A stretch of DNA of 64,000 nt from Tangfeifania diversioriginum (GTDB lineage Bacteria > Bacteroidota > Bacteroidia > Bacteroidales > Prolixibacteraceae), in NCBI GenBank assembly GCA_945873105.1, contig CAMCBW010000008.1:1-64000 (forward strand), read 5' to 3'. Positions 3,031 through 29,685 of the stretch are shown one piece after another. The notes beneath the pieces are model-generated. The model was not told where the DNA came from. It did not search any database and worked only from the letters and a program-made list of their open reading frames with translations. A program made the translations under genes and the position numbers. The first letter of the stretch is position 1; the number at the start of each line of letters is the position of its first letter.

Positions 3031-3114
3031 TCCCTAAGTCCCCTAGTCCCTAAGTCCCCTAGTCCCTCAGTCATTCTTCCGTCTCTCTGTCATTTTTCCG
3101 TCCCTCCGTCATTC
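3031..3114. repeat. C/T-rich short degenerate tandem repeat
   Basis: The stretch repeats a unit of about nine bases, CCCTAGTCC / CCTAAGTCC, then drifts to TTCCGTC / CTGTCAT variants. It begins in the gene-free interval and its last bases reach the stop region of the gene ending at 3109. It accounts for the distal third of the 2717-3108 gap; apart from the repeat at 2764-2876 I see nothing else there. Confidence 0.6.
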
Positions 3115-4368: not shown

Positions 4369-5811
4369 TTAGAGTTTGTAGTATTGCTCCCAGCCCTTGC
4401 GTGGTGGCGCACCTACGAGCAACTCGTTGGCAATCTTGTTGTTGGTGATCTGCTTGGTTTCGCGGTCGAACAACAGTTTGGTCTTGAGTTGTTGTGACAA
4501 AACGCCGAGGTTGAATACCTGGCTGAGCGGACCGGCAATTTCGAACCTTGAACGGCAAACCTCTTCGCCTTTGCAGCCCAGCAGGAAGTTGGCATAGTGG
4601 TTGGAGGGGCTCTTTGGAACCTCGGGAAGTTTGGAGGCCATCTCCTTGGCTTTCGCTTCAGGGATAATGGAGAGAATACTTCCATGTGAACCACCTTTGA
4701 AAGTCAGCTCCTTGCTGTAGATGATCTTGCCGGGATTCAGCCTGGATTCCTGAATTTTGCCATTGCTTGCAGCGGGGATATTTGGATCGAGAGATGCTGT
4801 GCCTCCATATCCTTCTGGAAGTGGAGGTTTGTTGTTTACACCGTCGTACCAGGTGATATCCAGTGCCGGCATATTGCCGCGTTTGGGGAATTTGAAGGAG
4901 AGGGTGGTGGTCTGAGGGAAGTAGTAGGTGTTGTACCCTTCGCTCTTCAGGCAATCCACTTCGTAGGGAAGTCCGAGGTCGAGGAATTCATGGGCAGTAT
5001 CGATGATGTGCGCACCCCAGTCGCCAAGGGCGCCCATGCCGAAATCGTACCAGCAGCGCCATTGACCCAGGTGGTAATCCTTGTTGTAGTCGTGGTGCAG
5101 TTTGGTCGCCATGTGCCAGGTTTCCCAGTCAAGGGTAGCAGGAATATCTTGTTTTTCAGGATATTTGGCATTTTTGAAATCCCAGCCGTGCCATCTTCTG
5201 GCGGAGTTCATGTGGGCAGTAATGGCGGTGACATCCTTGATGATACCGGCCTCTTTCCAGGCTTTGAATTGGAAATAGTTGGCCTCTGAGTGACCCTGGT
5301 TTCCCATTTGGGTGGCTACCTGGTATTTTTTGGCCCCCTGGATCATCAGTTCCACCTCGTTGAAGGTGCGTCCCATGGGTTTCTCGGTGAAGATGTGTTT
5401 GCCCATCTTCATGGCGTGCATCACAATCGGAAAGTGCGCAAAGTCTGGGGTACCAGCAGAAACGGCATCAATCTGGTTACCCATCTTGTCCATCATCACC
5501 CTGAAATCCTGGAAACGGGGAACATCCGGAAACATCTTGAGGATCTCCTGGGTGTGAGGAGCTCCCATGTCGACGTCGCACAAGGCCACGATGTTGCAAA
5601 GACCCGTTTTGTAGAAAGATTTAATGTCTGATCCCCCCTGGTTGCCGATGCCGCAGCAGGCCAGGTTGACCTTGTCACTGGCAGCTACTGGCTTCGGTGC
5701 AGGATTGGCTCCTGTGGCACTTTGGGTGAGGATGGTCGGCAGTGAAACCGCAGCGGTGAGTGCGGCAGCGTTCTTTAGAAAAGAGCGTCTTGAAGCTTCA
5801 TTCTGATTCAT
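4369..5811 (-). CDS. Tat-exported Gfo/Idh/MocA-family oxidoreductase
   Basis: The product is 480 residues. The N-terminus carries RRSFLKNAAALTAAVSLP, a Tat-type signal, so the enzyme is probably exported folded with its NAD(P) cofactor. The Rossmann motif is GIGNQGG near residue 53. EKPMG (the family's EKP lysine motif) and a GDWGAHIIDTAH block follow. Family members oxidise or reduce sugar hydroxyls, often at C3. In several Bacteroidota, exported members work with xylose-isomerase-like TIM-barrel proteins and DUF1080 proteins in 3-keto-glycoside cleavage; both partner types are present here (17149-18099 and 28894-29661). A second member lies at 18254-19660. Substrate is unknown. Confidence 0.88.
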   Translation of the reverse strand: MNQNEASRRSFLKNAAALTAAVSLPTILTQSATGANPAPKPVAASDKVNLACCGIGNQGGSDIKSFYKTGLCNIVALCDVDMGAPHTQEILKMFPDVPRFQDFRVMMDKMGNQIDAVSAGTPDFAHFPIVMHAMKMGKHIFTEKPMGRTFNEVELMIQGAKKYQVATQMGNQGHSEANYFQFKAWKEAGIIKDVTAITAHMNSARRWHGWDFKNAKYPEKQDIPATLDWETWHMATKLHHDYNKDYHLGQWRCWYDFGMGALGDWGAHIIDTAHEFLDLGLPYEVDCLKSEGYNTYYFPQTTTLSFKFPKRGNMPALDITWYDGVNNKPPLPEGYGGTASLDPNIPAASNGKIQESRLNPGKIIYSKELTFKGGSHGSILSIIPEAKAKEMASKLPEVPKSPSNHYANFLLGCKGEEVCRSRFEIAGPLSQVFNLGVLSQQLKTKLLFDRETKQITNNKIANELLVGAPPRKGWEQYYKL

Positions 5812-5871
5812 AAAGTTTTGTTTTTGAGATTGGTAATTCTATACATTTGATTGCAATTGTTCAATTTGGGT

Positions 5872-5899
5872 CACGCAAAGTACGCAAAGTGACGCAAGG
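5872..5899. repeat. CGCAAAG-type repeat half-site
   Basis: CACGCAAAGTACGCAAAG followed by TGACGCAAGG resembles one arm of the larger inverted repeat at 18162-18232 and of the copy at 60998-61051. It lies in the 5812-5991 gap, where I see no gene. Confidence 0.5.
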
Positions 5900-5991
5900 A
5901 AGTGGTCTATTTTCCACCATTCGCCTGAGATCTTCGCGGATTATTCCAAGATATCTTCCTGTTTGACTGCTGAAAGCATAAATAGTTTATT

Positions 5992-7833
5992 CTACTTTAG
6001 TTTTATCTCAATTTTATTGATCCCTGCTTTTAATTTCAGGATATCATCGGTCAGGGTGACGGATTTTCCGTTCAGCAGCACCACCTTTTTAGCAGCACCA
6101 TCCACTTTGAATTCCCCGGCCATCCCGGTAGGGATTTCAATGGAATAGGCAGTCAGTGCGTCGCTGATTTTTTTGTAATCCCCCTTTACCGATCCCTTTG
6201 GGGTAGGGGTTTTGATGGTACTGAACTTCAGGTCGCCCATGCGGGGATAGATCAATACCGTGCCAAATCCTGGTGTTTTGGGTTGAATGCCCCACAACTG
6301 CCTTGGAATGATGTTGGCCGGGACGGCTCCCCAGGCGTGGTTGAGGTCTGAGTTGGGCTTGTATTTCATGTCCCAGGCTTCCATGGCAATGGTTGAACCA
6401 AAACGGATCATGTTCCACCAGCTACGTTCGGAAGTTGAGCGCATCAAGTCTAACGCATACTGGGTTTCTCCATAATTGTACAGGCCATCCATCAGGAACT
6501 GGGCCCCATAAACGCTGCAGGCCATCCCGCGGGATTTGACAAAGTCGGTGACGGATTTGATCCGATCAGCAGGTACGATGCCGAATGCCAAGGCCAGCAT
6601 GTTCGAATGGATGGAGGAGTGGCTGGATCCCTCTCCATCGACATAGATCCCTTTGACGGGATCCAGAAGTTTCTGGTTGATGGAGGCTTTTACCTTGGCC
6701 GCCATTGCTTCGAAGTAGGCCTTGTCCGGTTGGTTGAGCACATCTGCAATTTCTGCCATGAACCTCATGTTCTCGTAGAAGAAGCAGTTGACCACCGTGT
6801 TGATGGGCATCATTTCGTGTCCGTCTCGTTCTCCCTCGGGCCGTGCCAGCTTCCATCCGGTATCTTTTTGTCCGGGCGGCCAGTCGACGATGTCCCTGAG
6901 CCTTTGCTTTGAGTCGGTGAAGCCTAGTTTCTGCATCAGTTCATCCGTTACTTTTCCGGAGGTGGTGCTGATGAGGCCATCTTCGCGGGCCAGGTCTACC
7001 AGTGTTTTGTTCCTGAGCGGACCGTAATACTTCTTCAGCAGGGTAAGATCTCCCGAGTAGTAATAATCCTGGTACATCATCAGGGCGGTATGCAGCAACC
7101 ATTCGGTAGGCCAGGTTGGGTGGCTCATAAAGTGGACGATGGTTCGCTGTGCCAGCTCATACTCCTGGTCGGTACAATAGTGTCCGAGTTGGTTGATGTA
7201 AGCGTCTGCCTCATAGGGAATTCGTTCTCGGTCGCCATCGATGTAGAGCCCGGCGAAGGAGGTGGCCTTCATGGTGTATTTGCAGAGCTCCCAAACCTGG
7301 TTGAGGATCGAATCAGAAGAGGTAAAACTGCTCTGGCTTTCATCAAAGCGCCAGAAATAGGCCTTTTGTCTGAGGTCTGCGGTGGTAACCGGTTGTGCGG
7401 CATTCCTGATTTCGACGTACCTGAAGGGGGTAATTACCCCGAAGGTATCGGGCAGCAATATGGCGGCCCCGGAAGTGTTCCGCTTGTCGGCAGGAAGTTT
7501 GAGGGTATAGCTGCCTTGGGAGGGGGAAACTTCCAGTTTGACCTCCTGGTAGCGGATGGTCCCCCCCGGTTTGGGGTCGATCCGTCCGTTCAGCAGTGTC
7601 TCACCCAATGCGATGACAAGGGTTTCCGGTTTGGATGCCATGTATTTCAACTCCAGGGTCCCGAAGGCATCCTTGCCAAAATCGGCCAGCCATGTTCCAT
7701 CGACTACTTTGGTCAGTTTGACGGGAGCGATTCGTTCGAGCTGGAAGGGATTCTTTGAATTGTCCTGTATTATTCCAAAACTTTGGGCCATGAAAGCAGC
7801 AAGCAGTAATTGGAGGAGTATTATTTTTCTCAT
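5992..7833 (-). CDS. GH78-type alpha-L-rhamnosidase
   Basis: The product is 613 residues with a signal peptide ending near QSFG. The central (alpha/alpha)6 barrel carries DGDRERIPYEADAY from residue 199, matching the acidic GH78 catalytic loop, then DWPPGQKDTG and LNHAWGA. A C-terminal beta-sandwich follows (KTPTPKGSV, then a run of strands). GH78 enzymes remove terminal alpha-L-rhamnose with inversion of configuration. It is shorter than multi-domain GH78 proteins because the N-terminal lectin-like modules are reduced. It lies 14 bases downstream of the GH31 gene, so the two are probably co-transcribed. Specificity for rhamnose itself is inferred from the family only. Confidence 0.85.
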   Translation of the reverse strand: MRKIILLQLLLAAFMAQSFGIIQDNSKNPFQLERIAPVKLTKVVDGTWLADFGKDAFGTLELKYMASKPETLVIALGETLLNGRIDPKPGGTIRYQEVKLEVSPSQGSYTLKLPADKRNTSGAAILLPDTFGVITPFRYVEIRNAAQPVTTADLRQKAYFWRFDESQSSFTSSDSILNQVWELCKYTMKATSFAGLYIDGDRERIPYEADAYINQLGHYCTDQEYELAQRTIVHFMSHPTWPTEWLLHTALMMYQDYYYSGDLTLLKKYYGPLRNKTLVDLAREDGLISTTSGKVTDELMQKLGFTDSKQRLRDIVDWPPGQKDTGWKLARPEGERDGHEMMPINTVVNCFFYENMRFMAEIADVLNQPDKAYFEAMAAKVKASINQKLLDPVKGIYVDGEGSSHSSIHSNMLALAFGIVPADRIKSVTDFVKSRGMACSVYGAQFLMDGLYNYGETQYALDLMRSTSERSWWNMIRFGSTIAMEAWDMKYKPNSDLNHAWGAVPANIIPRQLWGIQPKTPGFGTVLIYPRMGDLKFSTIKTPTPKGSVKGDYKKISDALTAYSIEIPTGMAGEFKVDGAAKKVVLLNGKSVTLTDDILKLKAGINKIEIKLK

Positions 7834-7847
7834 CTTGGGTAAGTTAA

Positions 7848-10004
7848 TTATCGTGTCATGAATTTCCAGGTTACATTGCCAAGATTATCCGGCAACCCTT
7901 TCAACGGCTTGGAAACAGACCCCGCTAATTTACCTTTTTTATCGATGGCAACAGTAATTCTCCGCCACGAATAGAGACCTTTTTCGTAGTCAAAAGTTTC
8001 TCCGTCATCGTCGTAGAGTTCATAGCTGGCTGGTTTGTTTCCATAACAACGGATTTCGAGGTCGAACTTCTCACCCTTGGCCGGTGAATGGAGCACTGGC
8101 GGCATCATGGGAATGATTCCTCCCTCCTTGACAAATACCGGAATTTTATCCAATCCGGCAGTGACCTTGATTACCTCGCCCTCACCTGCCAGTATGCCCG
8201 TGTAGAAATCGTACCATTTGCCTTGCGGCAGGATCACGGTTCTCTCGGTCTGACCCTTGAAGAGCGGGGCAACCAGCAGGTATTCGCCCGCCATGTACTG
8301 GTCTTTGACCTCTTTTGTGACAGCTTCGGCATAGGGGTTTTCGCTCAGGTTACTGTTTTTTAGCTCTGTCTGGACTTTTGCAGCAAAACCAGGTTCGAGG
8401 TTCATGGCACGGAAGGGAGGGGTACCTTCGAAATGGTATTTGGCAAATTCGGAGTAAAAATAAGGCATCAGCTGCATCCGCAGCAGGGCAATGGCCTTTA
8501 CCTCCTTCTCTACTTCCGGGAATGACCAGGGTTTGGTGCCATCCGACCAGGCATTGATCATTGCCATGGGGGAGAAACAGACGCTTTGCATGCGGCGCAC
8601 CCACTCTTCGCCGGTCTTGGACCCACGCACCTCAGGTGTCCAGAGAACACCCGAGAAACTACTGTTGATCAGTGCCGTGATGAAATCTTCGTGGCTGTAG
8701 TAGTCGTTGTAGATCACATAGGGAAGTGATACTCCTCCGGCATTGGAGGCCCGAACCAAACCAAAAGTCCGGCTGTTTTGCCGGCGGTAGAGATCGGATG
8801 TCATCTTCTGCAGCATGACTCCATAGGTCTGGCGCAGCTGTTCGGCACTATTCCCTGAGGGAAATTTGGCGACATCGGGCCACAGCCAGCGGTCGTATCC
8901 GTCGCATTCATCTACCTTGTAGCCACTTATGCCGATGCTTATCTGATCTTTCAACAGTTGATCGGAATAAATTTTTCTGGCTTCAGGAAGGGTCAAATCA
9001 GGGACAATTCCTCCCCAGACGGTATGCGTTCCCGACAAGGATTTTAGATTCCCGTAGATTGGGGAGTCGGGAGAGAGGTAGGGATTGGTCCAGAGGTTGA
9101 GCCGGATACCCATCGCCTGCATGGTTTTTACGAATCCAACCGGATCGGGAAACCTGCTCTTGTCCCACTCCAGGGTACAGGGATAGGATTTGCTTTGCCA
9201 GCCTGGTTCCAGACCAATAAAATCGAGTGGATAACCTTTTTCAGCAAAGGCTTTGGCCTCTTCCATTACCTGATCGGCTGTAAACAGGGATCTTACCCTT
9301 TGGGTGAAGCCCAGTCCCCAGCGGGGAGGGAGGCACCCTCCGCCATTGAACAGGTTGAAGCGGCGCACCGCATCGAGTGGAGTGGGGCCGGCAAAGAGGT
9401 AGATGTCGGTCCCGGTAGTCGGAACCACCATCTCCACCGCATCGGAGTAAGGCTGTGAGTTCCATTTTTTATCGGTATTGCGGTCTTTTGGCTCCGGGGC
9501 ATTGGGACTATCCTTCCGGACGGCCGTGCCTGCATAGACTGTGATGTACCTGGCGCTGTTGACAAAGACGCCATAACCCTGGCTCGAAACGTAAAATGGA
9601 ACCGGGGCATGGGTACGGCCGTTGTCGGTGCCACCATAGTGGTCGACATGTAGTTGCAGGATTTTACCCCTTTGCTGCACCGTTTTAAAATTCAGTCCAA
9701 AACCATAGAGTCTCTCCTCCTTCATCAGGGGGAAGCGGAGCATGGTTTTTCCATCTATGATTTCGGCTGCAATCTCCCCTTTGGGCAGAGGGAAGGTACC
9801 CGTGCCAAGTCGGCCCAGCGCTTCCATTGCAGGTTTTGACTCAGCTGCTGACAGCAAATCAAACTTATCGGGAATTCCGGCAGTCGCTTTCCATACGCCG
9901 GGTGCAACCTCCGTCCAGGTTAGATCCTGGGATTTTCCAACGGTTGAACAGAGGAGGATAAGTACAAGTAGATAAGTGCGTAGTCTTTTAGATTTATTAT
10001 ACAT
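7848..10004 (-). CDS. GH31-family alpha-glycosidase
   Basis: The product is 718 residues with a signal peptide (LLVLILLCSTVGKSQ). An N-terminal beta-sandwich precedes the (beta/alpha)8 barrel, which starts about PPRWGLGFTQR. The predicted nucleophile is Asp365 in GYKVDECDG, an atypical setting because classical GH31 has W-x-D-x-N-E. A C-terminal beta-sandwich follows (VILPQGKWYDFYTG, FVKEGGIIPMMPP, YELYDDDGETFDYEKG). Known GH31 activities include alpha-glucosidase, alpha-xylosidase, alpha-galactosidase and sulfoquinovosidase; I cannot choose among them. It sits between a fucosidase/esterase group and a rhamnosidase, which suggests side-chain trimming of a heteropolysaccharide. Confidence 0.85.
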   Translation of the reverse strand: MYNKSKRLRTYLLVLILLCSTVGKSQDLTWTEVAPGVWKATAGIPDKFDLLSAAESKPAMEALGRLGTGTFPLPKGEIAAEIIDGKTMLRFPLMKEERLYGFGLNFKTVQQRGKILQLHVDHYGGTDNGRTHAPVPFYVSSQGYGVFVNSARYITVYAGTAVRKDSPNAPEPKDRNTDKKWNSQPYSDAVEMVVPTTGTDIYLFAGPTPLDAVRRFNLFNGGGCLPPRWGLGFTQRVRSLFTADQVMEEAKAFAEKGYPLDFIGLEPGWQSKSYPCTLEWDKSRFPDPVGFVKTMQAMGIRLNLWTNPYLSPDSPIYGNLKSLSGTHTVWGGIVPDLTLPEARKIYSDQLLKDQISIGISGYKVDECDGYDRWLWPDVAKFPSGNSAEQLRQTYGVMLQKMTSDLYRRQNSRTFGLVRASNAGGVSLPYVIYNDYYSHEDFITALINSSFSGVLWTPEVRGSKTGEEWVRRMQSVCFSPMAMINAWSDGTKPWSFPEVEKEVKAIALLRMQLMPYFYSEFAKYHFEGTPPFRAMNLEPGFAAKVQTELKNSNLSENPYAEAVTKEVKDQYMAGEYLLVAPLFKGQTERTVILPQGKWYDFYTGILAGEGEVIKVTAGLDKIPVFVKEGGIIPMMPPVLHSPAKGEKFDLEIRCYGNKPASYELYDDDGETFDYEKGLYSWRRITVAIDKKGKLAGSVSKPLKGLPDNLGNVTWKFMTR

Positions 10005-10043
10005 ATAATGAGGTGATTAAAAAATCTGAATCATTGCTTTTCA

Positions 10044-10192
10044 TTGCCCGGAGGGCATTAATATCCATAGAAAACAAATGTACATTAACCGATTGTCCGA
10101 CAGGACATAAATTAGAAAGGGTTGATTCCCTCGCGGGAAATCTGTCTTCAAGAATTCATTTTCTATGGATATTAATCTCCTCCGGAGAATAG
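10044..10192. repeat. Long intergenic palindromic element
   Basis: An 18-base sequence ATTAATATCCATAGAAAA (10057-10074) recurs exactly inverted at 10159-10176. Small GC hairpins flank and fill it: GCCCGGAGGGC on the left, TCCCTCGCGGGA inside, CTCCTCCGGAG on the right. This modular build is like the MITE/REP-type repeats of Bacteroidota. It fills most of the 10005-10206 gap between the GH31 gene and the upstream esterase gene. No gene is evident in it. Confidence 0.75.
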
Positions 10193-10206
10193 CCGAATTG
10201 AATTAC

Positions 10207-11037: not shown

Positions 11038-11050
11038 ATTTTGCTTTTTT

Positions 11051-11083
11051 AGACCTTCAAGGTTTTCAAAACCTTGAAGGTCT
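11051..11083. repeat. Perfect intergenic hairpin between fucosidase and esterase
   Basis: AGACCTTCAAGGTTTT and AAAACCTTGAAGGTCT form a stem of about 15 bp with almost no loop. On the transcribed minus strand the stem is followed by A residues rather than T residues, so it does not look like an intrinsic terminator for this operon. It may affect relative expression of the flanking genes. Confidence 0.75.
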
Positions 11084-11090
11084 GTTAGTA

Positions 11091-12524
11091 TTAATCCAGC
11101 GCCCCGGTTTTCATCTTCTTCTTAGCCCCTTCGGAAAGATTGGCTACGGCGCCTTTGACGGTGACCTTGATCACTGTGGCGATGGCATCCGGAGCATTTT
11201 CAGGCAGTGCAATGGTCATGCCATCGGGGGAGCTTTTGCTTTTCAATGCAGATCCGCTGGCAAGGATTACAGCTGACTTTACCGGTTGGTTCAATCCGGG
11301 TATGACCAGTTTGCCATCTTTCGGCCAGTCGAAGACCGAGAAATAGAGGAGGGTGTTTCCGTCGGACTCCTTTTTCGTACAACGGCCCCAGGGCAATATC
11401 CCGAAAGGGGAGGCCTTGGTGGCATAGATTGCTTCGCTGTTGACTTTCATCCAGGCGCCCACCGCTTTCAATCTGTCGATACTGGGTTGCGGAATCTGTC
11501 CGAGGGCATCAGGGCCGACATTGAGCAGGTAATTACCTCCCTTGGAGGCAATGTCGCAAAGGTTACGGATCAGCGTTTCCGGTGATTTCCATTTGTCGTC
11601 GTTGGTTCGGTAGCCCCAGGTTCCGTTCATGGTCATGCAGGTTTCCCAGTCCCTGCCATCCAGTTCGTCAGCTCCGGGAATTTTTTGCTCCGGTGAACCT
11701 GTATCGCCCGGGAAATTGGGCCGTTTCAGCCGGTCGTTGGTGATAATGCCTGGCTGAAGTTTCAGCAGTTCCTGCAGCTTCAGGGCATTTTCATCGGTCA
11801 TCCCGGTAGGGGTGTCCCACCACAACACCGCCACCTCTCCGTAGTTGGTCAGCAACTCCTTCACCTGCGGAATGGCGACCCTGTTGACGTACTCGTCCAT
11901 GGTAGAGGTTAGTTGTGCAGGATCCCAATGCCCCTTGTTGGCGGCAGTATAAGCATCAATTCTTGTTGAATCGGGATTTTCCCATCCTTCGGCTGAAACC
12001 TTTCGGGCTACAGCGCCGCCTGGATTGTTCCAGTCCTGGGCCTGGGAGTAGTAGAATCCCAGTTTCATGTCGTGTTTTTTGCAGGCTTTGGCCAGGGCCT
12101 CAAGGACATCCTTTTTGTAGGGGGTGAAGTCGGCAATGTTGAATGTGCTGGCACTGGATTTGAACATGGCAAAACCATCGTGGTGCTTGGAGGTGATGAC
12201 GATGTATTTCATGCCGGCCTCTTTGGCCAGCAAGACCCAGGATTCGGGGTTGTATTTCACCGGATTAAAGGTCGAGGCAACCTGTTGGTATTCGGCCACC
12301 GGTATTTTGCAGCGGTTCATGATCCACTCTGCACCACCTCTTTTCTGCTGGTGTCCGTGGTATTCACCACCGAAAATGGCATAGGGCCCCCAATGGATAA
12401 AGAGACCGAAGCGGGCTTCGCGCCACCACTGCATCCGCTTGTCACGGGATTCTTTGCTCTCCTGGGAGATGGCTCCCTGGATCAGGAACAAACCGATAAA
12501 TAGGATCAACAGGCACTTCTTCAT
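11091..12524 (-). CDS. GH29 alpha-L-fucosidase
   Basis: The product is 477 residues with a signal peptide ending near GAISQ. The GH29 barrel begins at RMQWWREARFGLFIHWG. The motif SKHHDGFAMF follows, and the predicted nucleophile is Asp237 in VLWWDTPTG. GH29 enzymes release terminal alpha-L-fucose with retention, in the periplasm or at the cell surface. The C-terminal domain is a short beta-sandwich. A second, larger GH29 enzyme is at 19670-21559. Two GH29 genes and a GH95 gene point to a fucose-rich substrate. The gene lies about 60 bases after the SGNH hydrolase gene and is probably in the same transcript. Confidence 0.92.
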   Translation of the reverse strand: MKKCLLILFIGLFLIQGAISQESKESRDKRMQWWREARFGLFIHWGPYAIFGGEYHGHQQKRGGAEWIMNRCKIPVAEYQQVASTFNPVKYNPESWVLLAKEAGMKYIVITSKHHDGFAMFKSSASTFNIADFTPYKKDVLEALAKACKKHDMKLGFYYSQAQDWNNPGGAVARKVSAEGWENPDSTRIDAYTAANKGHWDPAQLTSTMDEYVNRVAIPQVKELLTNYGEVAVLWWDTPTGMTDENALKLQELLKLQPGIITNDRLKRPNFPGDTGSPEQKIPGADELDGRDWETCMTMNGTWGYRTNDDKWKSPETLIRNLCDIASKGGNYLLNVGPDALGQIPQPSIDRLKAVGAWMKVNSEAIYATKASPFGILPWGRCTKKESDGNTLLYFSVFDWPKDGKLVIPGLNQPVKSAVILASGSALKSKSSPDGMTIALPENAPDAIATVIKVTVKGAVANLSEGAKKKMKTGALD

Positions 12525-12588
12525 CTGGATAGTATCGTTTTAGTTTAATCTTCGGTCAATCGATAAACATCAATGGTCTTGTTGTCCC

Positions 12589-13233
12589 CTATTTTTGAAG
12601 AACTGAACGGATGGTTTCCACCAGTGGTGCAGCCAAAAGTTCATAGCCGGCATCCGAATAATGGACATTTCCCGGTTTGGAATTTTGTGGATGGATGGTT
12701 TGCGATGCGGTATAAAGATCGATCACCTGAATGCCATTCTTTTTCATCACCTCCAGGGCTACCTGGTTGTATTGTGCCGGATCCTCCACTTTTCTGCCGG
12801 CAGAGTTTTCAGGAACCACAGTGGTGGTCACAAAAACCAGTACTGCGGTGGTCTCCTTTAATTTTGCCACAATTTTCTCAAGGTTGGTGCGGTATTGATC
12901 GAGGGTTACCGAGACCTTTCCGGTTACATCGTATTTGTTCTGGGCATCCTTGTGTACCAGGTCGTGCAAGCCGAAGTTGAACAGGACCATGTCCCACTCC
13001 CGGTTGCCGAGCCACACCTCCAGACTGTCGACTCCCCGGACCGTAGAACCGCCATTCCCCGGGTTGTGTGCCACATTAATGGCCGGTGCAAGGGCTTTTT
13101 GAACATAGGGGGTGTACCCGATGGAGATTGAATCGCCTATGATCAGTACATTTTTGACTTGGTCGGTGGTGGCGGCCAGGCAGACCACACTTAGCAGGAT
13201 CAGGGCCGTTCGGAAAATGGATTTCGTACTCAT
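12589..13233 (-). CDS. SGNH/GDSL-family secreted hydrolase
   Basis: The product is 214 residues with a signal peptide ending near CLAAT. The block I motif is IIGDSIS with Ser at about 35. An oxyanion Gly lies in NPGNGGSTVRG. FNFGLHDL occupies the block III position, and the terminal Asp/His pair is probably within NVHYSDAGY. Length and domain order match SGNH acetyl- or other acyl-esterases of PULs. It may deacetylate the same glycan that the neighbouring fucosidase trims. The block III Asn normally seen as GxND is replaced by GLHD, a mild deviation. Confidence 0.8.
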   Translation of the reverse strand: MSTKSIFRTALILLSVVCLAATTDQVKNVLIIGDSISIGYTPYVQKALAPAINVAHNPGNGGSTVRGVDSLEVWLGNREWDMVLFNFGLHDLVHKDAQNKYDVTGKVSVTLDQYRTNLEKIVAKLKETTAVLVFVTTTVVPENSAGRKVEDPAQYNQVALEVMKKNGIQVIDLYTASQTIHPQNSKPGNVHYSDAGYELLAAPLVETIRSVLQK

Positions 13234-13266
13234 TTTTTGTCTGGATAATTTTAGATTTGACTTATT

Positions 13267-14160
13267 CTAGTCCGGCTTATTGGATAATTGGTTTACAGCT
13301 TTGAAATTTTTATTGTTTATCAATGATCTCATCTGTGTAATGGCAATGCGGTTGAGTTGTGTTAAACGCTCACTTTGGGTCAATTGTTGATGGATTAAAA
13401 CCGCATTGATACTTTCCATATTTGAGAGTACCACCAACTGTTCGATGGTAGCATTATCGCGGATATTTCCTTCGCTATCAGGATTTTCGTTTCGCCATTG
13501 CTGTGCCGTTTTTCCAAACAAGGCAACATTAAGCATGTCAGCCTCATTGGCGTAGACAAAATTGATTTGTTGCCTGGTCAATTCGGCAGGTACCAGGTTT
13601 TCTCTGATTGCGTCGGTATGAATGTGGTAATTAATTTTGGCCAAGGTCCGTTGAAGACTCCAACCTAATTTCAGCCGGTCATTCTCATCATCTTTTAAGC
13701 GTTGAAATTCTTTGATTATAAATAACTTGAATTCAATAGATATCCATGAGGCAAATTCAAAAGCAATGTCTTTGTGTGCAAAAGTACCACCATATCTACC
13801 GGATTTAGAAACGAGTCCGATTGCGGCAGTTGATTCAATCCACTTCTTTGGTGTCATCGTAAAACTATTAAGTCCGGCTTGTTTTCTATACCCGTCGAAT
13901 TCGACGGGTTTAAAATCGGGATTATGCATTTGTTCCCAAAAACCCAAGAGTTCGATGGTATTCCTATTTCTAAGCCAATTTTTAATGATATCATCCGTAT
14001 GCTCAGCATCTTTATATCTTGCGATGTCAGTAAGTGATAAATAATCTAGAAGCCCACCTTGAAAAACGATTATCTCAGTCCCTTTCACATTAATCACTCT
14101 ATTTTTTGCCATATCAGTGATTTTTTCTGGCGGACGAATTTGACCGCTGTCTTGCAGCAT
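13267..14160 (-). CDS. KilA-N domain-containing protein
   Basis: The product is 297 residues with no signal peptide. An N-terminal KilA-N-like DNA-binding domain (GLLDYLSLTDIARYKD, NWLRNRNTIELLGFWEQ, GRYGGTFAHKDIAFEFASW) is followed by a helical C-terminal part. Such proteins are widespread in Bacteroidota as stand-alone genes of unknown role, related to phage anti-repressor proteins. ATG at 14160 is the longest start; ATG at 14112 (MAKNRVINVKG) fits homologues better. It is the only gene here unrelated to glycans and is cytoplasmic. It separates the enolase-superfamily gene from the esterase group. An AT-rich gap of 170 bases lies upstream. Confidence 0.82.
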   Translation of the reverse strand: MLQDSGQIRPPEKITDMAKNRVINVKGTEIIVFQGGLLDYLSLTDIARYKDAEHTDDIIKNWLRNRNTIELLGFWEQMHNPDFKPVEFDGYRKQAGLNSFTMTPKKWIESTAAIGLVSKSGRYGGTFAHKDIAFEFASWISIEFKLFIIKEFQRLKDDENDRLKLGWSLQRTLAKINYHIHTDAIRENLVPAELTRQQINFVYANEADMLNVALFGKTAQQWRNENPDSEGNIRDNATIEQLVVLSNMESINAVLIHQQLTQSERLTQLNRIAITQMRSLINNKNFKAVNQLSNKPD

Positions 14161-14330
14161 TAAGTTAATGAATTTTAATGAATTATTGGCAAAATTTTAA
14201 CGAAATATTCTTTGTTTGCATCGAATTTTAATCTGTTGCCGCTTTGTCATTTTTGAAAGATGCATTTCACTGAAGTTATCCATCCTGCTGGTAGCAATAG
14301 TCCTGAAAATATCAAATGCACTTGAAATTG

Positions 14331-15737
14331 TTATTTTTTCTGAGCCGCAAACATCTCCTCGTAATGGGGCATGGGTTCAAAGATTCCGCCACTGGTTCTG
14401 TAGAATTCGTCTGTCAATTCATAGACCCCTTTGGTGGCCTTCACCCAGGCGCCCTCCTTACCAGGATGATAGCCCATCATGGTGTTCCAGTTCTTGTAGT
14501 TCTGGTGCCCATTGCTTTCGATCAAACCGAGATTTTCCAGTCCGGGGAAGGAGCCTAACCTGGCTGCTACATTTTTGTTCCAATCCACCAGGATGGGATT
14601 CACAGTCAGGTCGGCGCAGAAGCAGGGGATGTTCCGCTCGTGGGCGGCTTGGGCGATCTTCATGGTCATGCTCAGGGTTTTGGCAATGGCTTTCAGGGCG
14701 ATGGCTTTGTAACCCATTTGTATGCGCTTGATGGCATCTTCATCGGTATGGGCGCTCTCATCGGAAGCCAACCTAACGGGAATGTCCGATACATCGAATT
14801 CCAGCTCTTCAGCAAAAGGTTCCTCGATGATCGCAATCTGGTCGAACGCCCCGATTTTTCGGGCATGGTCGATCAGTTTCAGCAGGGTCTCCTTCTTTTC
14901 GTACCGGCCATTGGCATCAAAATAGTAGGGCAATTTGCCATCTTTGGAGTAGGAAGTCCTTACCATTCCGATGGCCTGGTGGATGGCCGTGAGTCTGGCC
15001 TTGTCCTTTTCGAGCATCTCCTCCTGTGTGCCTGGTTGGCCGATCTTGATTTTCATGAAGAAATATCCTTGTTCGACAGCCTCCCGGATTTCACCTACCG
15101 GGATGCTGTAGGCCATCAGGGGTATCGCTGCTGCTTGTTTGTGGTGGTTGGAGAGGGCCGGCAAGTAGGCTTTCGGGATGATTTCGTCAAAGGTTTTCAA
15201 TCCATTCTCTGCGGCATAGAGCAACCAGGCTGCGTTGTCGGTACCTACGAGCGCATTCAGGGCGAAGGTCTTGCGGAGTTGCTGATTGGCGGTGATTTTC
15301 TGTCCGTAGGCATAGACTTCCGGAAGAATGTTGTCGAGCAATTCGATGGGAGTGGTGAAGCTCTGCCCCTTCATGATCTGGAGTACCCGCTCTGTCAGGG
15401 CAAACATCAGGGCATTGCCGCCACTCTCGGAATGGGCTGCAAAAACCTGCGCGTCCGACCAAAGCACATTCTGGGTACATAGTCCTATGGAATGTTTGCC
15501 CGAACTGCTCTTCAGGTAGTTGACGGTTTGCCAGATTTCGGTCATAAATCCGCCCTTGAAACCGAAAGGCCGGATCAGTGGTTCCCGCTCAAAATTGGAG
15601 CCAACGTCGGAGATGGTGATAGATTTGGCTTTGGCCTGAAGTGCCGGACTGCCCATTGCTTCAAATCCGGCCAAAGTAGCAGTTCCTGCAACACCGGTAG
15701 TTCTCAAAAATTCTCTTCTGGAGGTTGGTATAGTCAT
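14331..15737 (-). CDS. Tat-exported enolase-superfamily (mandelate racemase-like) protein
   Basis: The product is 468 residues. The N-terminus has SRREFLRTTGVAGTATLAG, a Tat-type signal. The C-terminal barrel shows the superfamily pattern: MKIKIG (barrel lysines), YFDANGR (first metal Asp), IIEEPFAEE (second metal Glu), LASDESAH (third acidic ligand) and ALKAIAK. Characterised relatives dehydrate or racemise sugar acids such as fuconate, rhamnonate or galactonate, normally in the cytoplasm; export is unusual. A possible role is processing of an oxidised sugar released outside the inner membrane. It lies 18 bases after the VOC gene. Substrate is unknown. Confidence 0.82.
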   Translation of the reverse strand: MTIPTSRREFLRTTGVAGTATLAGFEAMGSPALQAKAKSITISDVGSNFEREPLIRPFGFKGGFMTEIWQTVNYLKSSSGKHSIGLCTQNVLWSDAQVFAAHSESGGNALMFALTERVLQIMKGQSFTTPIELLDNILPEVYAYGQKITANQQLRKTFALNALVGTDNAAWLLYAAENGLKTFDEIIPKAYLPALSNHHKQAAAIPLMAYSIPVGEIREAVEQGYFFMKIKIGQPGTQEEMLEKDKARLTAIHQAIGMVRTSYSKDGKLPYYFDANGRYEKKETLLKLIDHARKIGAFDQIAIIEEPFAEELEFDVSDIPVRLASDESAHTDEDAIKRIQMGYKAIALKAIAKTLSMTMKIAQAAHERNIPCFCADLTVNPILVDWNKNVAARLGSFPGLENLGLIESNGHQNYKNWNTMMGYHPGKEGAWVKATKGVYELTDEFYRTSGGIFEPMPHYEEMFAAQKK

Positions 15738-15755
15738 TGGTAATTCGCTTGATTG

Positions 15756-16724
15756 TTAATTGGTTACTGCTACATATTTCAAAGGTGGCGCATCAGAAGA
15801 TGGAACCTTCTTCCCATCCACCGTTTTGGCCTCCATGATCTCCACCCTGGTGCCATCCGCATCGTAGCAGTTGATCTGCCGTTTCCGGTTGATACCGGTT
15901 TTCAGGGCGGTGGTGGGTTTCAAACCTTCGGGCAGTTTCCTGGTAGCCAACGTGGCTTCTGAAACAGCTACGTCATTTACTTCTAAACAGATATGGTTCA
16001 TGGTCCCCATCGAATTTGCAGTGGGTTCCTTGTCGTAGAGCATCAGTTCGATGTAGTCGTTGCCATCGGGAACCTTCAAATTGACCCAGGTCACATTTTT
16101 CCCATCCCGGCTTCCCCGCCAGGTCTCCTTGAAGCCAAGTATGCCGCAATAGAAGGCGATGGCCTTCTCCAGGTCGGGAACCATGAAACCAACGTGGCTC
16201 ATCCGGGTGGCGATTCTTGTGTCGGGCATATCCTTGCCAAGCGATTTGGCCGACATGCTGTTGGGTTCGTATTGAACCATCTCGCAGATGGTACCATTGG
16301 GATCCGTTACGAAATAGTTGGAGTTGCCTGTCCTACCTTTGGGTGTTGTTTCCGGCACCTTTATCCCCTTTGATGCCAGGTATTTGCGCATAGCTTCAGC
16401 ATCGCTGGTCTCCACCGAAAAATGGTACATGCGGTTGCCCCCTTGTTTCCTTTCGGGAAAAATCTCCACAAACTGACGGTCATTGATCTTGATAAAGGCA
16501 AGGGCCAGCTCTTTCCCGTTAGGGGTCATCAAGGAGAAGGCTTCGGCAAATCCCAGGTATTCCTTGTAGAATTGGCGGGTGCTCTCCACATCTTTGGTAA
16601 AGAAGGCAGCATGGGCAATTCCGGTAATGGGTGGCCGTTTGATGCCCTTCTTTGCCTGGAGGGATGTAGTAATAAAACAGGCAGATAATATCAAAATTAT
16701 AAGGATAGGAGATATTTTTTTCAC
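15756..16724 (-). CDS. Exported two-domain VOC (glyoxalase/dioxygenase-fold) protein
   Basis: The product is 322 residues and starts at GTG. The N-terminus (ILIILILSACFITTSLQA) is a signal peptide and could also be read as a lipobox. Two VOC domains follow: one from GIAHAAFFTKDVE to FVTDPNGTICEMVQYE, the other from MSHVGFMVPDLEK to YDADGTRVEIME. Metal ligands of the family (His on the first strand, Glu on the last) appear in both. VOC enzymes catalyse isomerisation, epimerisation, C-C cleavage or lyase reactions. Being exported next to an enolase-superfamily enzyme and an exported TIM-barrel protein, it may act on a keto or enol sugar intermediate. Confidence 0.8.
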   Translation of the reverse strand: MKKISPILIILILSACFITTSLQAKKGIKRPPITGIAHAAFFTKDVESTRQFYKEYLGFAEAFSLMTPNGKELALAFIKINDRQFVEIFPERKQGGNRMYHFSVETSDAEAMRKYLASKGIKVPETTPKGRTGNSNYFVTDPNGTICEMVQYEPNSMSAKSLGKDMPDTRIATRMSHVGFMVPDLEKAIAFYCGILGFKETWRGSRDGKNVTWVNLKVPDGNDYIELMLYDKEPTANSMGTMNHICLEVNDVAVSEATLATRKLPEGLKPTTALKTGINRKRQINCYDADGTRVEIMEAKTVDGKKVPSSDAPPLKYVAVTN

Positions 16725-16807
16725 TCGTAAATAGTTTAATAAATGAAAATTTAGTTCAATAAATGCTTAAAAAGCAGCATCCCATTTTCCAATTTACCCC
16801 TAAATCC

Positions 16808-16825
16808 TCCCGATCTAGATCGGGA
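16808..16825. repeat. 18-base perfect palindrome in a gene-free interval
   Basis: TCCCGATCTAGATCGGGA reads the same on both strands. It sits inside CCCCTAAATCC...CTGAAGGGGACTTC, a layout like a common Bacteroidota intergenic repeat. The 16725-17148 interval otherwise holds the dispersed repeat at 16994-17108 and a doubtful 101-codon ORF. Confidence 0.7.
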
Positions 16826-16993
16826 CAGGCTCTGAAGGGGACTTCCAGCATCTATCAAAATTTCAGATAATTGCAGCAATCCAGCCCCTTCATGGGTTTG
16901 TGGTATAAAAACACGACAATAATTTTTATAAGGCTCATCTGGAATTTCTTGCGTTTTTACCTGTTTCAGAATGTTCTTTTTTCCTGATTTGTG

Positions 16994-17108
16994 CCTTCCG
17001 TCCGATACGATCCAATCGCTTTTCTGAATGATGGTTCGCGGACGGGTTTCACACACAACCTTCTCTTTCTACCAACATGCCGCCGCTATGCGGCTGGATT
17101 TGTTAAGG
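16994..17108. repeat. Dispersed intergenic repeat, copy 2
   Basis: This is the partner of 2764-2876, with the same ordered blocks (CCTTCCGTCCGA, TCGCGGACGG, TTTCTACCAACA, GGCTGGATT). This copy also has a compact CCGCCGCTATGCGGC hairpin. It ends about 40 bases short of the TIM-barrel gene stop. Confidence 0.6.
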
Positions 17109-17148
17109 TGTTTTAAAGTGGTTGAAGAAGATTAAGGATCCTGAAATC

Positions 17149-18099
17149 TCAAAGTTCAATTTGGTTTTTCTTCATGCTTGCACGAAGCCAATCCAGGTCT
17201 TTCTTCATCATGGCATAGATCTTCTCAGGATCCATGGTAGTGGTTTTCTTGCCGGATTCTGCGCCGCCGAGGTCGTATTCGAAATGGATGCTGACCGGAG
17301 CTTCTACTTTCAGGGTGGCATACTCCTTGAAAAATTCCTTGAAGTTGACCATTCCTTCACCCAGCAGCACATTCTGGTGCTTCCAGGCACCCTTGGCATC
17401 TTTTCCCCATACAAAGTCCTTGATGCAGATGGACCTGATCCAGGGTGCAACCCTTTTCATGCCCAGCAACCAGCAGTAGCCCCCTTCGGTAGTGGCATGC
17501 CTGATATCGTACTGCACCCCAAGGTATTTTGGATCGACCTCCTTGACCAGGTCGTACAAGTCCCAAACCGGCGCGCCAACATGCAGTCCGGAGTGGTTCT
17601 GGTAGCCTCCGTGAATGCCTAACTTCTCATTCAGTTTGGCCAGTTTTTCAAAGGAGCCTTTGTAGCCGTCAAGGTTTTGCTGGATGGTCTTTTTGAAATC
17701 GTAGGAGAGCCATCCCATCCGGTAGTGGGTAATCCCCGCATCCGCAGCGACCTTTAAGGTCTCAATGGAGAGCGGATCGGCAGCGTCAGTGACAGCGGTA
17801 ACCATCAATGGAACTGCAATTCCTGCCTTTTGGAGCGTTTTAACTGCCTTGGGCAATTCTGCCTTCACGTTGGCTGGCTCAATCTGACCGTCCGGCCTGA
17901 CAGTAATGTCTGCTCCGTCAAATTCGAGACGTGCCAGCACTTCACCGATCTGCTCGAAGTTCAGAAACTGGAGGCATTTGGTGAATGCACACAAGGGTCT
18001 TTTGGGTGATTTCGCTGCTGGAATGGCCATGCCATTGCCTGCCAGCGTGATACCGGCTGCAGAAAGTCCGGTAGTACTGATAAAGTTGCGTCGTTCCAT
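17149..18099 (-). CDS. Exported xylose-isomerase-like TIM-barrel protein
   Basis: The product is 316 residues. The N-terminus (MERRNFISTTGLSAAG) is a short Tat-type signal. The rest is an AP-endonuclease-2/xylose-isomerase-like TIM barrel: LEFDGADITVRPDG, GITHYRMGWLSYD, LGIHGGYQNHSGLHVG, GVQYDIRHATTEGG, SICIKDFVWGKD and a late HFEYDLGGAE. The His, Asp and Glu residues on strand ends fit a metal site. Family members include sugar epimerases and the lyases that cleave 3-keto-glycosides after a Gfo/Idh/MocA oxidation. It is about 150 bases after an exported Gfo/Idh/MocA gene, which supports that pairing. Confidence 0.83.
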   Translation of the reverse strand: MERRNFISTTGLSAAGITLAGNGMAIPAAKSPKRPLCAFTKCLQFLNFEQIGEVLARLEFDGADITVRPDGQIEPANVKAELPKAVKTLQKAGIAVPLMVTAVTDAADPLSIETLKVAADAGITHYRMGWLSYDFKKTIQQNLDGYKGSFEKLAKLNEKLGIHGGYQNHSGLHVGAPVWDLYDLVKEVDPKYLGVQYDIRHATTEGGYCWLLGMKRVAPWIRSICIKDFVWGKDAKGAWKHQNVLLGEGMVNFKEFFKEYATLKVEAPVSIHFEYDLGGAESGKKTTTMDPEKIYAMMKKDLDWLRASMKKNQIEL

Positions 18100-18161
18100 G
18101 GGTTCGGATTTTATTATTTGGTATTTTAATCAAAAGTTCAACTGATTAACAACATTAATTG

Positions 18162-18232
18162 GTCTCGCAAAGCACACAAAGAAACGCAAGGGAAAAATTC
18201 TTCTTTGCGTTTCTTTGCGTGCTTTGCGAGAC
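18162..18232. repeat. Large CGCAAAG inverted repeat
   Basis: GTCTCGCAAAGCACACAAAGAAACGCAAG-type sequence (18162-18190) is mirrored at 18203-18232, giving near-perfect arms of about 29 bases and a short AT-rich loop. It fills the space between the Gfo/Idh/MocA gene and the TIM-barrel gene. No T-run follows the stem on the minus strand, so it is more a stability element or mobile palindrome than a terminator. Confidence 0.8.
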
Positions 18233-18253
18233 AATTAAGATCTTGCATAGTGC

Positions 18254-19660
18254 CTACAATTTCCAGGGCTTCCGGTATTCGTAATGCAGCATTTTGTTGG
18301 CTTCCTCCGAATTGGTAAAGAGCTCCTTGTCGGGATCCCACTGGAGCCGTTTGCCGGTAGCCAGCGCGATGTTGGCCAGGTGTGCAAAGCTGGTCGAGCG
18401 GTGTCCCTCTTCCAGGGTACAGAGCGGAATACCCCTGTTTTTGATGCAATCCAGGAAGTTTCGGATCACATTGGCAGTGGCATAGGAATTGCTTCCATCT
18501 GTTAAATTTTGAGTAGGAACATTCATCTCTTCCGTCTTGATCAACTCCTTCTCCTTCCAGTTTTGAAACTGTCCTTTTTTGGAAGGAACGATCTTGTAAC
18601 CATCCTGACTGGCATAGAGATTTCCCTTGGTACCCCGGAGTTCAATTTCCCCGTAAGGGAACAGTTCGCCACCACTTGCTTCAAATATGCTGAAAGAGAT
18701 CATCTTTTTGGAAGCAAATTCGTAGGTAACCTGCATGGTATCCGGAATGTCTCCGTCGTGGTCCAGCACATATTTTCCGCCGTGTGCTGAGATCGCAACC
18801 GGTGCTACTTCGCCCATCATCCAGCGCATGGCATCCATGTAGTGAACTCCCCAGTTGCCCATCTGGCTGGAGAATTCGCCCCACCACCTGAACATGTAAG
18901 GGGCAATGTTGTATTTGTAGGGCCGGAATGCACGGGGCCCCAGCCACATATCCCAATCGAAATCCTTGGGTGGTTGTTCTGCTTTCAGCTTTCCAATCCC
19001 GTCGGGGAACATGTTGCTCACCCTGGCAGCCCTCGCGGAGGTAACCTGACCGATTCTTCCGGCAGGAATCTCTTTGGCAAGTTTTTGGTACACTTCATTG
19101 CCCCTTCGGTTGAGACCTACGGCTACCACCCTGTCGCTGGCTTTCCACATGTTGACCATGGTCCGGCCCTCCTTGATGGTTTGGGTCAGCGGTTTCTCCA
19201 CATAGACATCTTTTCCTGCCTTGACCGCATCGATCATTTGGATGGCGTGCCAGTGGTCGGGCGTTGCGATGCAAACCGCATCGATGCTCTTATCCTCCAA
19301 TAATTTTCGGTAGTCACTGTACAGTTTGGGTTGGACCGGGAATTTTTCGCCCATTTTTGGCACCTGACCTGCGCGGTCTGCCAGGTAGCGGGGATCCACT
19401 TTTGCCCGGTTGCGCTGCAGGTAGGGTTCGTAGATGTCGCACAAGGCCACTACTTCCACATCACTTTGCTGCATAAATAGCTCCAGGAGTTGGGAGCCCC
19501 TGTTTCCGATGCCGATAAACCCCATCCTGATCTTGTCGTTGGGGCCAACGGTTCTGCCTAATCCAGGTGCACTCACGGCATTCAGGGCAACTGAAATTCC
19601 GCCAACAGTCAGTGCTGTTTTTTCAATAAAACCGCGTCGGGTTTGGTCTGTTTTTTCCAT
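18254..19660 (-). CDS. Tat-exported Gfo/Idh/MocA-family oxidoreductase, second copy
   Basis: The product is 468 residues. The N-terminus (QTRRGFIEKTALTVGG) is a Tat-type signal. The nucleotide-binding motif is GFIGIGNRG near residue 49. CIATPDHWH, YVEKPLTQ (EKP motif) and GNWGVHYMDAMRW follow in family order. It is only distantly similar to the copy at 4369-5811. Such enzymes use NAD(P) to oxidise sugar hydroxyls; because the protein is exported, the cofactor must be held tightly. It sits 9 bases downstream of a GH29 gene and upstream of an exported TIM-barrel gene, so it may oxidise oligosaccharides released by the fucosidase. Confidence 0.88.
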   Translation of the reverse strand: MEKTDQTRRGFIEKTALTVGGISVALNAVSAPGLGRTVGPNDKIRMGFIGIGNRGSQLLELFMQQSDVEVVALCDIYEPYLQRNRAKVDPRYLADRAGQVPKMGEKFPVQPKLYSDYRKLLEDKSIDAVCIATPDHWHAIQMIDAVKAGKDVYVEKPLTQTIKEGRTMVNMWKASDRVVAVGLNRRGNEVYQKLAKEIPAGRIGQVTSARAARVSNMFPDGIGKLKAEQPPKDFDWDMWLGPRAFRPYKYNIAPYMFRWWGEFSSQMGNWGVHYMDAMRWMMGEVAPVAISAHGGKYVLDHDGDIPDTMQVTYEFASKKMISFSIFEASGGELFPYGEIELRGTKGNLYASQDGYKIVPSKKGQFQNWKEKELIKTEEMNVPTQNLTDGSNSYATANVIRNFLDCIKNRGIPLCTLEEGHRSTSFAHLANIALATGKRLQWDPDKELFTNSEEANKMLHYEYRKPWKL

Positions 19661-29661: not shown

Positions 29662-29685
29662 TTTTTTCAAGTTGTTAATTAGCAT

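Follow-up and report, generated by a model that had tools for sequence, protein, structure and literature searches.

The window analysed here opens contig C8 (134 kb) of the Tangfeifania diversioriginum genome (5.36 Mb in 99 contigs) and spans 64 kb. It carries a polysaccharide utilization locus (PUL) with six minus-strand genes for putatively exported proteins: two Gfo/Idh/MocA oxidoreductases (GMO1 and GMO2), a xylose-isomerase-like TIM barrel protein (TIM), a two-domain glyoxalase/VOC protein (VOC), an enolase-superfamily protein (ENOL) and a DUF1080-like protein (Table 1). The original prediction had described them as one extended module for the oxidation and non-hydrolytic cleavage of glycosides. 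The open reading frames (ORFs) were found with the ends it gave, except that the DUF1080-like ORF ends at 29685 rather than 29661, and its family assignments agreed with Pfam, for DUF1080 by a weak match above the cut-off. The enolase label, on which Pfam was silent at E 0.001, was borne out by a structure model that matched enolase-superfamily folds. The prediction of export was also supported: judged by eye from the leader sequences, GMO1, GMO2, TIM and ENOL have an RRxF motif of the twin-arginine translocation (Tat) type near their start, and VOC and the DUF1080-like protein have other hydrophobic leaders. The six genes are not contiguous, and many PUL genes lie in between: GH78, GH31, esterase, GH29, GDSL and KilA-N genes separate GMO1 from ENOL, and GH29, two beta-helix-type, DUF4861 and GH95 genes separate GMO2 from the DUF1080-like gene. 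Comparison of sequences across genomes pointed to a smaller natural unit, the predicted core of which is GMO2, TIM and ENOL.

Table 1. Genes of the window considered in the analysis, with position, strand and the evidence for each assignment.
Feature	Position	Strand	Evidence and remarks
GMO2, Tat-type Gfo/Idh/MocA oxidoreductase, predicted core	18254..19660	-	PF01408/PF19051; RRGF at 8
TIM, Tat-type xylose-isomerase-like TIM barrel (AP_endonuc_2), predicted core	17149..18099	-	PF01261, 59.8 bits; RRNF at 3
ENOL, Tat-type enolase-superfamily protein (muconate-lactonizing enzyme/dipeptide-epimerase type), predicted core	14331..15737	-	RREF at 7
VOC, two-domain glyoxalase/VOC protein, not core	15756..16724	-	PF00903; between TIM and ENOL
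GMO1, Tat-type Gfo/Idh/MocA, PUL member outside the trio	4369..5811	-	PF01408
DUF1080-like protein	28894..29685	-	PF06439, 35.5 bits (cut-off 26.8); 9 kb upstream of the trio
PL6/chondroitinase-B-family lyase	52927..54357	-	PF14592, 380.8 bits; polyuronate context
Heparinase II/III-family protein, C-terminal part	62824..63999	-	PF07940, 90.7 bits; continues past window edge
Alginate_lyase-domain protein	3109..4317	-	PF05426, 295.1 bits
Alginate_lyase-domain protein	36705..37934	-	PF05426, 259 bits
SDR (short-chain dehydrogenase/reductase) oxidoreductase	60207..60959	-	61% identical to SDR of L162 (locus with lyase and TIM relative)
MFS (major facilitator superfamily) transporter, best model of hexonate (galactonate) type	61093..62361	-	TIGR00893, 255.9 bits, below cut-off of 395
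KilA-N domain protein	13267-14160		PF04383, 70.5 bits; within PUL, between ENOL and GDSL lipase gene

Relatives of ENOL were gathered from a scan of a species-genome collection, in which 95 were found and 80 kept and the nearest came from Bacteroidia/Bacteroidales bins. Genomes of the phylum, with ENOL in 7 of 395 (six strong matches and one at E 4e-4), and of the order (5 of 247) added more. This gave 92 ENOL loci (denoted L with a number), 74 of which had at least 3.5 kb of upstream sequence, the window and two duplicates included. Four loci with no ENOL above 300 bits (L026, L027, L028 and L123) were excluded before counting, and the duplicates L120 (of L082) and L122 (of L056) were kept in the 74-locus count but removed from the 73- and 90-locus counts and from the lyase and sulfatase counts. 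Within 6 kb of ENOL, a GMO2-family gene was present in 39 of the 74 loci, a TIM-family gene in 37, both in 31 and neither in 29; with duplicates removed and the window included, GMO2 was present in 38, TIM in 36 and both in 30 of 73. These partners were on the same strand as ENOL in every case, mostly in one gene order and with narrow spacing (GMO2 mostly approximately 2.4 kb and TIM approximately 1.2 kb upstream), and the stop-to-stop ORFs of the trio frequently abutted or overlapped by a few bases. From the 42 Gfo/Idh/MocA matches in the 5.36-Mb genome, the chance of a same-strand gene of this family within 3 kb on one side was estimated at approximately 1%; the adjacency of GMO2, TIM and ENOL recurs far above chance. 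Because the genome holds so many such genes, the presence of two in one PUL is in itself unremarkable. Remoter Gfo/Idh/MocA proteins were encoded directly upstream of ENOL in L051, L055, L071, L080 and L084 (the last by profile score), with 27–31% identity to GMO2 in the four compared.

In the ENOL tree (L097 omitted as too short), records with the complete trio carried the phylum labels Bacteroidota, Verrucomicrobiota, Fidelibacterota, KSB1 and Acidobacteriota, although several of them are metagenome bins whose labels are possibly wrong. The twin-basic motif [RK]R.[FL] was found near the start of 76 of 90 ENOL, 39 of 44 TIM and 41 of 42 GMO2 ORFs. Reverse searches scored the best four (GMO2) or five (TIM) candidates per genome, and absences from them are therefore unsure. 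They recovered GMO2 relatives at E 1e-100 in at least 3 of the 395 phylum genomes, two of which (that of the window and G347) have them beside ENOL, while a weaker relative in G227 had no ENOL nearby. TIM relatives at E 1e-40 were recovered in at least 12 of the 395, in three cases beside ENOL.

The gene neighbourhoods supported the original set as far as GMO2, TIM and ENOL were concerned, but not for VOC, GMO1 and the DUF1080-like protein of the window. Searches for relatives of VOC and of this DUF1080, as well as the gene-order listing, covered 87 ENOL loci (L019–L108, not L119–L122). VOC relatives occurred only in L042 and L044, two Hyunsoonleella records (32–35% identity), and VOC was rejected as a core member. 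As VOC and the trio occur together in two lineages, it is kept as a presumptive accessory, or inserted, gene; with gaps of 424 bp to TIM and 18 bp to ENOL, it looks like an insertion. VOC is single-copy in its own genome, with matches at E 1e-20 in 5 of 247 order genomes (its own included), and no GMO2, TIM or ENOL match was found near VOC in the stretches fetched from G452 (a short contig), G556, G557 and G347. In the two Hyunsoonleella loci, two VOC proteins flank an Alginate_lyase-domain gene and the trio (in L042 at 5108–6103 and 11784–12719). GMO1 was also considered as core, as nine ENOL loci seemed to hold GMO1-like proteins; all of these were closer to the BT2158-type dehydrogenases, discussed below, of the window's own genome or of a control operon. 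GMO1 is 30–32% identical to true BT2158-type proteins, and in no other ENOL locus did a protein resemble GMO1 more than it did BT2158-type proteins or GMO2. The window DUF1080 was provisionally rejected as a partner, phmmer having found no relative of it in the 87 loci; blastp gave no match to the DUF1080 protein of the control operon, and a PDB sequence search was empty at E 0.01.

Catalytic residues were compared in alignments of 40 GMO2, 63 ENOL and 38 TIM sequences (the ENOL set omits L078, with a stop in the match, L081 and others). The original prediction had itself proposed a check for loss of catalytic residues in the oxidoreductases or TIM, and no such loss was seen in either oxidoreductase: Lys156 of the EKP motif, His273 and Asp276, which we take to be the dehydrogenase catalytic residues, were invariant in GMO2 (40/40), and GMO1 holds EKP and G..H..D. 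The best solved relatives of both are 8tdf/8tdh. In ENOL, K229, K231, D274, N276, E305, D326, K349 and K353 were invariant (63/63). The canonical residues line up with those of the dipeptide epimerase 3jva (whole-sequence E 0.0033), and presumably represent the KxK lysines, the Asp/Glu/Asp metal ligands (D274, E305 and D326) and the opposite lysine (K349). The ENOL model (mean pLDDT 91.3) had 3jva_B as its top Foldseek match (E 3.8e-18, prob 1.00, TMq 0.57, TMt 0.73, 17% identity); the NCBIfam model racemase_DgcA gave 21 bits against a cut-off of 400. Judged from the alignment, ENOL keeps the catalytic residues of the muconate-lactonizing/dipeptide-epimerase type. Enzymes of this superfamily act with the substrate carboxylate bound to Mg2+. 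An interrupted second copy of ENOL lies elsewhere in the same genome (C23:31383–31886, L026), downstream of a SusC/SusD pair, in pieces 79–85% identical and with an internal stop.

TIM presented a different picture. In the beta-eliminase AtOGE, the metal ligands are His132 (beta5), Asp163 (beta6), His189 (beta7) and, bound weakly, Glu233 (beta8), with His134 as the base; the beta7 His is essential (PMC10628242). At these positions TIM has Q167 (beta5), D198 (beta6) and a residue other than His at 225 (beta7), together with H169 at the base position, two residues past that of the beta5 ligand (38/38). The combination of beta5 Gln and beta7 non-His was present in all 38 aligned sequences and in nine further members (47/47), including those of the lyase loci described below, while the TIMs of two control loci (L140 and L141) have His, Asp and His at beta5, beta6 and beta7. 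At beta8, TIM has an invariant H272 where 3p6l, 3tva and the TIMs of L020, L021, L064 and L091 align Glu; the alignment is less sure here, the two controls falling one column off, and the beta8 Glu is probably replaced by H272. The residues Q167 N168 H169, D198, H201, E205, K227 D228, H272 and E274 were invariant (38/38), and TIM thus reads as a distinct branch that conserves a site of its own rather than as a decayed copy. In a fold search with the TIM model (pLDDT 92.6), generic sugar epimerases ranked first and the hydratase AtHYD (8ro4) 18th; with this model the search does not discriminate among families. TIM as a Mn lyase of the BT2156/AtOGE type was rejected for the loss of the beta5 and beta7 ligands (and probably that of beta8). 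The cleaving barrel originally assumed is therefore not what the residues predict: without the beta5 and beta7 Mn-ligand residues, TIM would not be a standard 3-keto lyase.

The 3-keto route has only recently joined the known modes of glycan breakdown, and the Bacteroides pathway for 3-keto-glycosides (BT2156–BT2159 type) is a known case, DUF1080 being the 3-keto-disaccharide hydrolase family of the wider pathway. Against the family model BT_2158_fam, GMO1 scored 272 and GMO2 153 bits, both under the cut-off of 750, and against the reductase model BT_2159_fam 24.6 and 51.6 bits (cut-off 650). By comparison, the control operon L140, which a family search yielded, holds TIM, DUF1080, BT2158-like and BT2159 genes, the last with 715.7 bits. 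Members of BT_2158_fam above the cut-off were found in 32 of 149 order genomes; the true BT2158-type genes of the window's own genome (856 and 755 bits) lie on contigs C45 and C25, outside the window. BT2158-type proteins (at least 40% identity to references) were encoded in 9 of 90 unique ENOL loci (L037, L045, L047, L049, L055, L066, L079, L086 and L089), DUF1080-family proteins in 14 and either in 16. In L055 the BT2158-type protein is on the opposite strand, and its counterpart in L049, approximately 8 kb away, is truncated where the contig ends; the BT_2158_fam scores of six of the nine ranged from 478 to 827 bits, the protein of L045 being a shortened ORF. The gene row is DUF1080 - BT2158-like - GMO2 - TIM - ENOL in L045 and L047, ENOL - GMO2 - BT2158 in L086, and DUF1080 - GMO2 - ENOL without TIM in L038, L041, L046 and L050. 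Pfam scores were 140 and 53.6 bits for two DUF1080 proteins, one from each cluster near ENOL. The idea of an extended oxidise-and-cleave module was thus partly supported: it is plausible in that the trio recurs and that relatives have BT2158-type and DUF1080 genes in their ENOL loci, but the plain known mechanism was not supported, since TIM lacks the beta5 and beta7 (probably also the beta8) metal ligands. A literature search for this gene combination, in a collection without most subscription papers, found none; as a separate search on BT2156/BT2158 missed the main paper, no absence in print is claimed.

The original prediction had proposed fucosides or sulfated sugars as substrates, whereas the neighbours of the trio suggest uronates. 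In the closely related loci L029 and L031 the trio is followed by SDR, KduI/IolB-family (PF04962, approximately 108 bits each) and MFS genes. The best models for these in L029 were gluconate 5-dehydrogenase, IolB and galactonate transporter, respectively. In L065, a KduI/IolB-family ORF abuts ENOL. With the window excluded and TIM-only loci in neither group, lyase-like genes were found near 9 of 37 GMO2-bearing ENOL loci and near none of the 29 with neither partner (Fisher p 0.0036, kinship ignored). Sulfatases were, if anything, rarer near the GMO2-bearing loci (11/37) than near those with neither partner (16/29), an argument against the trio being specialised in sulfated sugars. The PUL of the window holds sulfatases, GH2, two GH29, GH31, GH78 and GH95 according to a profile search, together with PL6/chondroitinase-B-family, Alginate_lyase-family and Heparinase II/III-family proteins. 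The assignments of SusC and SusD were made by eye from translations, as were those of four of the five sulfatases; one sulfatase was checked. The Heparinase II/III-family protein is 37–40% identical to lyases of L162 and L170. No KduI/IolB-family match was found in the window, and farther on the same contig there was one weak match (31.1 bits, L125).

TIM was also encountered without ENOL beside window-type lyases, in five of the nine further genomes (L162, L166, L167, L168 and L170), one of which (L166) also has a PL7-type Alginate_lyase2 and a PfkB kinase. No GMO2 or ENOL match was found in the stretches fetched for these five loci. No lyase match was found near TIM in L164, L165 and L169, and the high-GC L163 was poorly resolved. 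In the five loci, TIM adjoins an RraA-like ORF (PF03737 in L166; by eye in the other four), and the literature search found no report of this pairing.

Taken together, the sequences indicate that the exported trio probably extends known non-hydrolytic sugar breakdown to acidic sugars. We favour, tentatively, the more specific reading that it is a conserved Tat-exported unit that extends 3-keto oxidise-and-cleave chemistry to uronate-bearing glycan fragments freed by the lyases of the PUL. The reactions and their order, as we infer them, would begin with GMO2, with its nicotinamide cofactor held tightly and folded in before Tat export, oxidising a ring hydroxyl (most likely at C3) of a terminal uronate. 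TIM, with its rebuilt active site and the base-position H169, would isomerise or cleave the keto intermediate, and ENOL, using Mg2+ and the pair of Lys229/Lys231 and Lys349, would abstract the proton at C5 of the uronate, adjacent to the carboxylate, either epimerising C5 or driving an elimination. The product could then be imported by the hexonate-type MFS transporter, and KduI/IolB-like and KduD/gluconate-5-dehydrogenase-like enzymes would finish its breakdown. The original prediction described a real finding and was partly right about its kind, with a unit that is smaller, partners that are partly different and a substrate that is likely acidic.

Several observations weigh against this reading. 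Neither GMO2 nor TIM accompanies ENOL in the 29 loci mentioned above, and in 9 of the 12 TIM-bearing genomes TIM has no adjoining ENOL, which weakens a strict three-gene unit. A cytochrome-c/DUF7133-like cluster occurs in 17 ENOL loci and a cluster of sulfatase-maturation type (formylglycine-generating enzyme, FGE) in 12; these loci mostly have sulfatases and lack GMO2 or TIM. ENOL may have another role there, and its chemistry must make sense without GMO2 too. TIM lacks the canonical Mn site and so may not be a lyase. The link to BT2158-type and DUF1080 genes comes mainly from one ENOL clade plus Petrimonas-type loci, and among the six neighbouring dehydrogenases scanned only that of L086 (826.6 bits) exceeds the BT_2158_fam cut-off. 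The lyase enrichment is driven by the Alginate_lyase type (7/37; Heparinase type 1/37, PL6 type 0/37), and four of the nine lyase-bearing loci are the nearest relatives of the window and two are of one genus. The SDR, KduI/IolB and MFS genes of L029 score under the cut-offs of their best NCBIfam models, and an upstream GH88-like gene, cut by the contig end, reaches 25.0 against a cut-off of 26.6. Finally, the PL6, Alginate_lyase, Heparinase II/III, SDR and MFS genes of the window are in the same PUL but 10–45 kb from the trio.

In Cyclobacterium, Lunatimonas and their relatives (L088, L090, L093, L096, L098, L099, L101–L104, L107 and L108), ENOL has a second recurring setting, behind a cytochrome-c/DUF7133-like protein and in the company of sulfatases and an FGE-type gene, but without GMO2 or TIM.

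A bolder proposal, which we consider rather doubtful, is that ENOL founds a secreted family acting on glycan uronates, as a Mg2+/lysine-dependent uronate lyase or C5-epimerase on a keto-uronoside made by GMO2, with TIM as a partner whose metal site has been rebuilt. If true, it would constitute a new enzymatic route for polyuronates, different from those of polysaccharide lyases and of hydrolases. A little less probable again is that uronates are processed with no 3-keto step: TIM would be an isomerase, ENOL an exported C5 epimerase or dehydratase on free or unsaturated uronates, and GMO2 would oxidise or reduce the product. The TIM relatives of alginate-type loci without adjoining ENOL, the KduI/IolB-family and SDR neighbours and the enolase fold would fit this well, but it leaves unexplained why some relatives have BT2158-type and DUF1080 genes in one operon with members of the trio. 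Such operons would fit the plain 3-keto pathway, in which GMO1 and GMO2 would make 3-keto-glycosides from neutral fucosides or rhamnosides, TIM and DUF1080 would cleave them by beta-elimination and ENOL would be a helper; the match of both oxidoreductases to BT_2158_fam, their closeness to 8tdf/8tdh and the base-position His of TIM are in line with it. We nevertheless regard it as unlikely. Both scores are far below the cut-off, with the true members on other contigs; TIM lacks the beta5 and beta7 ligands, the latter of which is the essential His of AtOGE; no relative of the window DUF1080 was found near the other ENOL genes in the 87 loci; and an enolase-type enzyme requires a carboxylate. 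A role of ENOL as an exported epimerase of dipeptides or N-acyl amino acids, placed incidentally in a sugar cluster, is improbable in view of its approximately 17% identity to such enzymes and its repeated adjacency to GMO2, TIM and glycan genes, although dipeptide epimerases and N-acylamino acid racemases are among its closest solved folds. Least probable of all is the absence of any functional unit, with glycan genes reshuffled among PULs and joined by hitch-hiking: PUL genes do reshuffle often and the spread of ENOL is patchy and sparse, but 31 of 74 loci have both partners, without exception on the strand of ENOL, mostly in the same order and with abutting ORFs, across phyla.

Should the uronate reading of the trio be true, the 3-keto route would also cover acidic polysaccharides, for example algal polymers that are alginate-like or rich in glucuronate. 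The trio offers three purifiable enzymes, and the TIM branch, in which the metal site of the lyases appears replaced by another invariant set of residues, is a clean target for structural and mechanistic work.

Three further features of the PUL were observed. KilA-N domains are mostly met in phage and regulatory proteins; a 67% identical relative of the KilA-N protein lies between esterase and GH31 genes in the related PUL L031, and the gene may travel with the PUL cluster. An inverted repeat around 'ctatggatattaat' that flanks approximately 100 bases was seen by eye at approximately 10030–10190, between the GH31 and esterase genes, and is possibly a small mobile or hairpin element. A 504-aa protein (21556–23070), for which no Pfam or NCBIfam match was found at E 0.001, is 70% identical to a protein of the related PUL L034.

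Compared with the Bacteroides 3-keto pathway, the set in the window is alike in combining an exported Gfo/Idh/MocA dehydrogenase with an exported AP_endonuc_2 TIM barrel, and some relatives of the trio share one operon with BT2158-type and DUF1080 genes. It differs in that its oxidoreductases are far under the equivalog cut-offs, the metal site of TIM is replaced, an exported enolase-superfamily enzyme is added and the neighbours are of uronate type; the described cases of non-hydrolytic 3-keto breakdown appear to concern mostly glucosides (PMC10628242; PMC13273386). With the beta-eliminases AtOGE and PuCGE, TIM shares the barrel, the base-position His and a partner Gfo oxidoreductase, whereas its beta5 His/Glu is changed to Gln, its beta7 His to other residues and, probably, given the less sure alignment, its beta8 Glu to His (PMC10628242; PMC13273386). 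ENOL resembles the muconate-lactonizing enzyme/dipeptide epimerase subgroup (3jva, 1jpm and 3q45) in fold, KxK motif, D/E/D ligands and second lysine, but is longer (468 vs. approximately 350 residues) and has a Tat-type leader and a glycan operon as its setting. Alginate-type loci of other Bacteroidota (with PL6, PL7, Heparinase II/III and Alginate_lyase, PfkB and SDR genes) hold the same TIM family, and the SDR of one of them (L162) is the closely similar one listed in Table 1; unlike in the trio, TIM adjoins the RraA-like ORF in these five loci, with no GMO2 or ENOL match in the stretches fetched.

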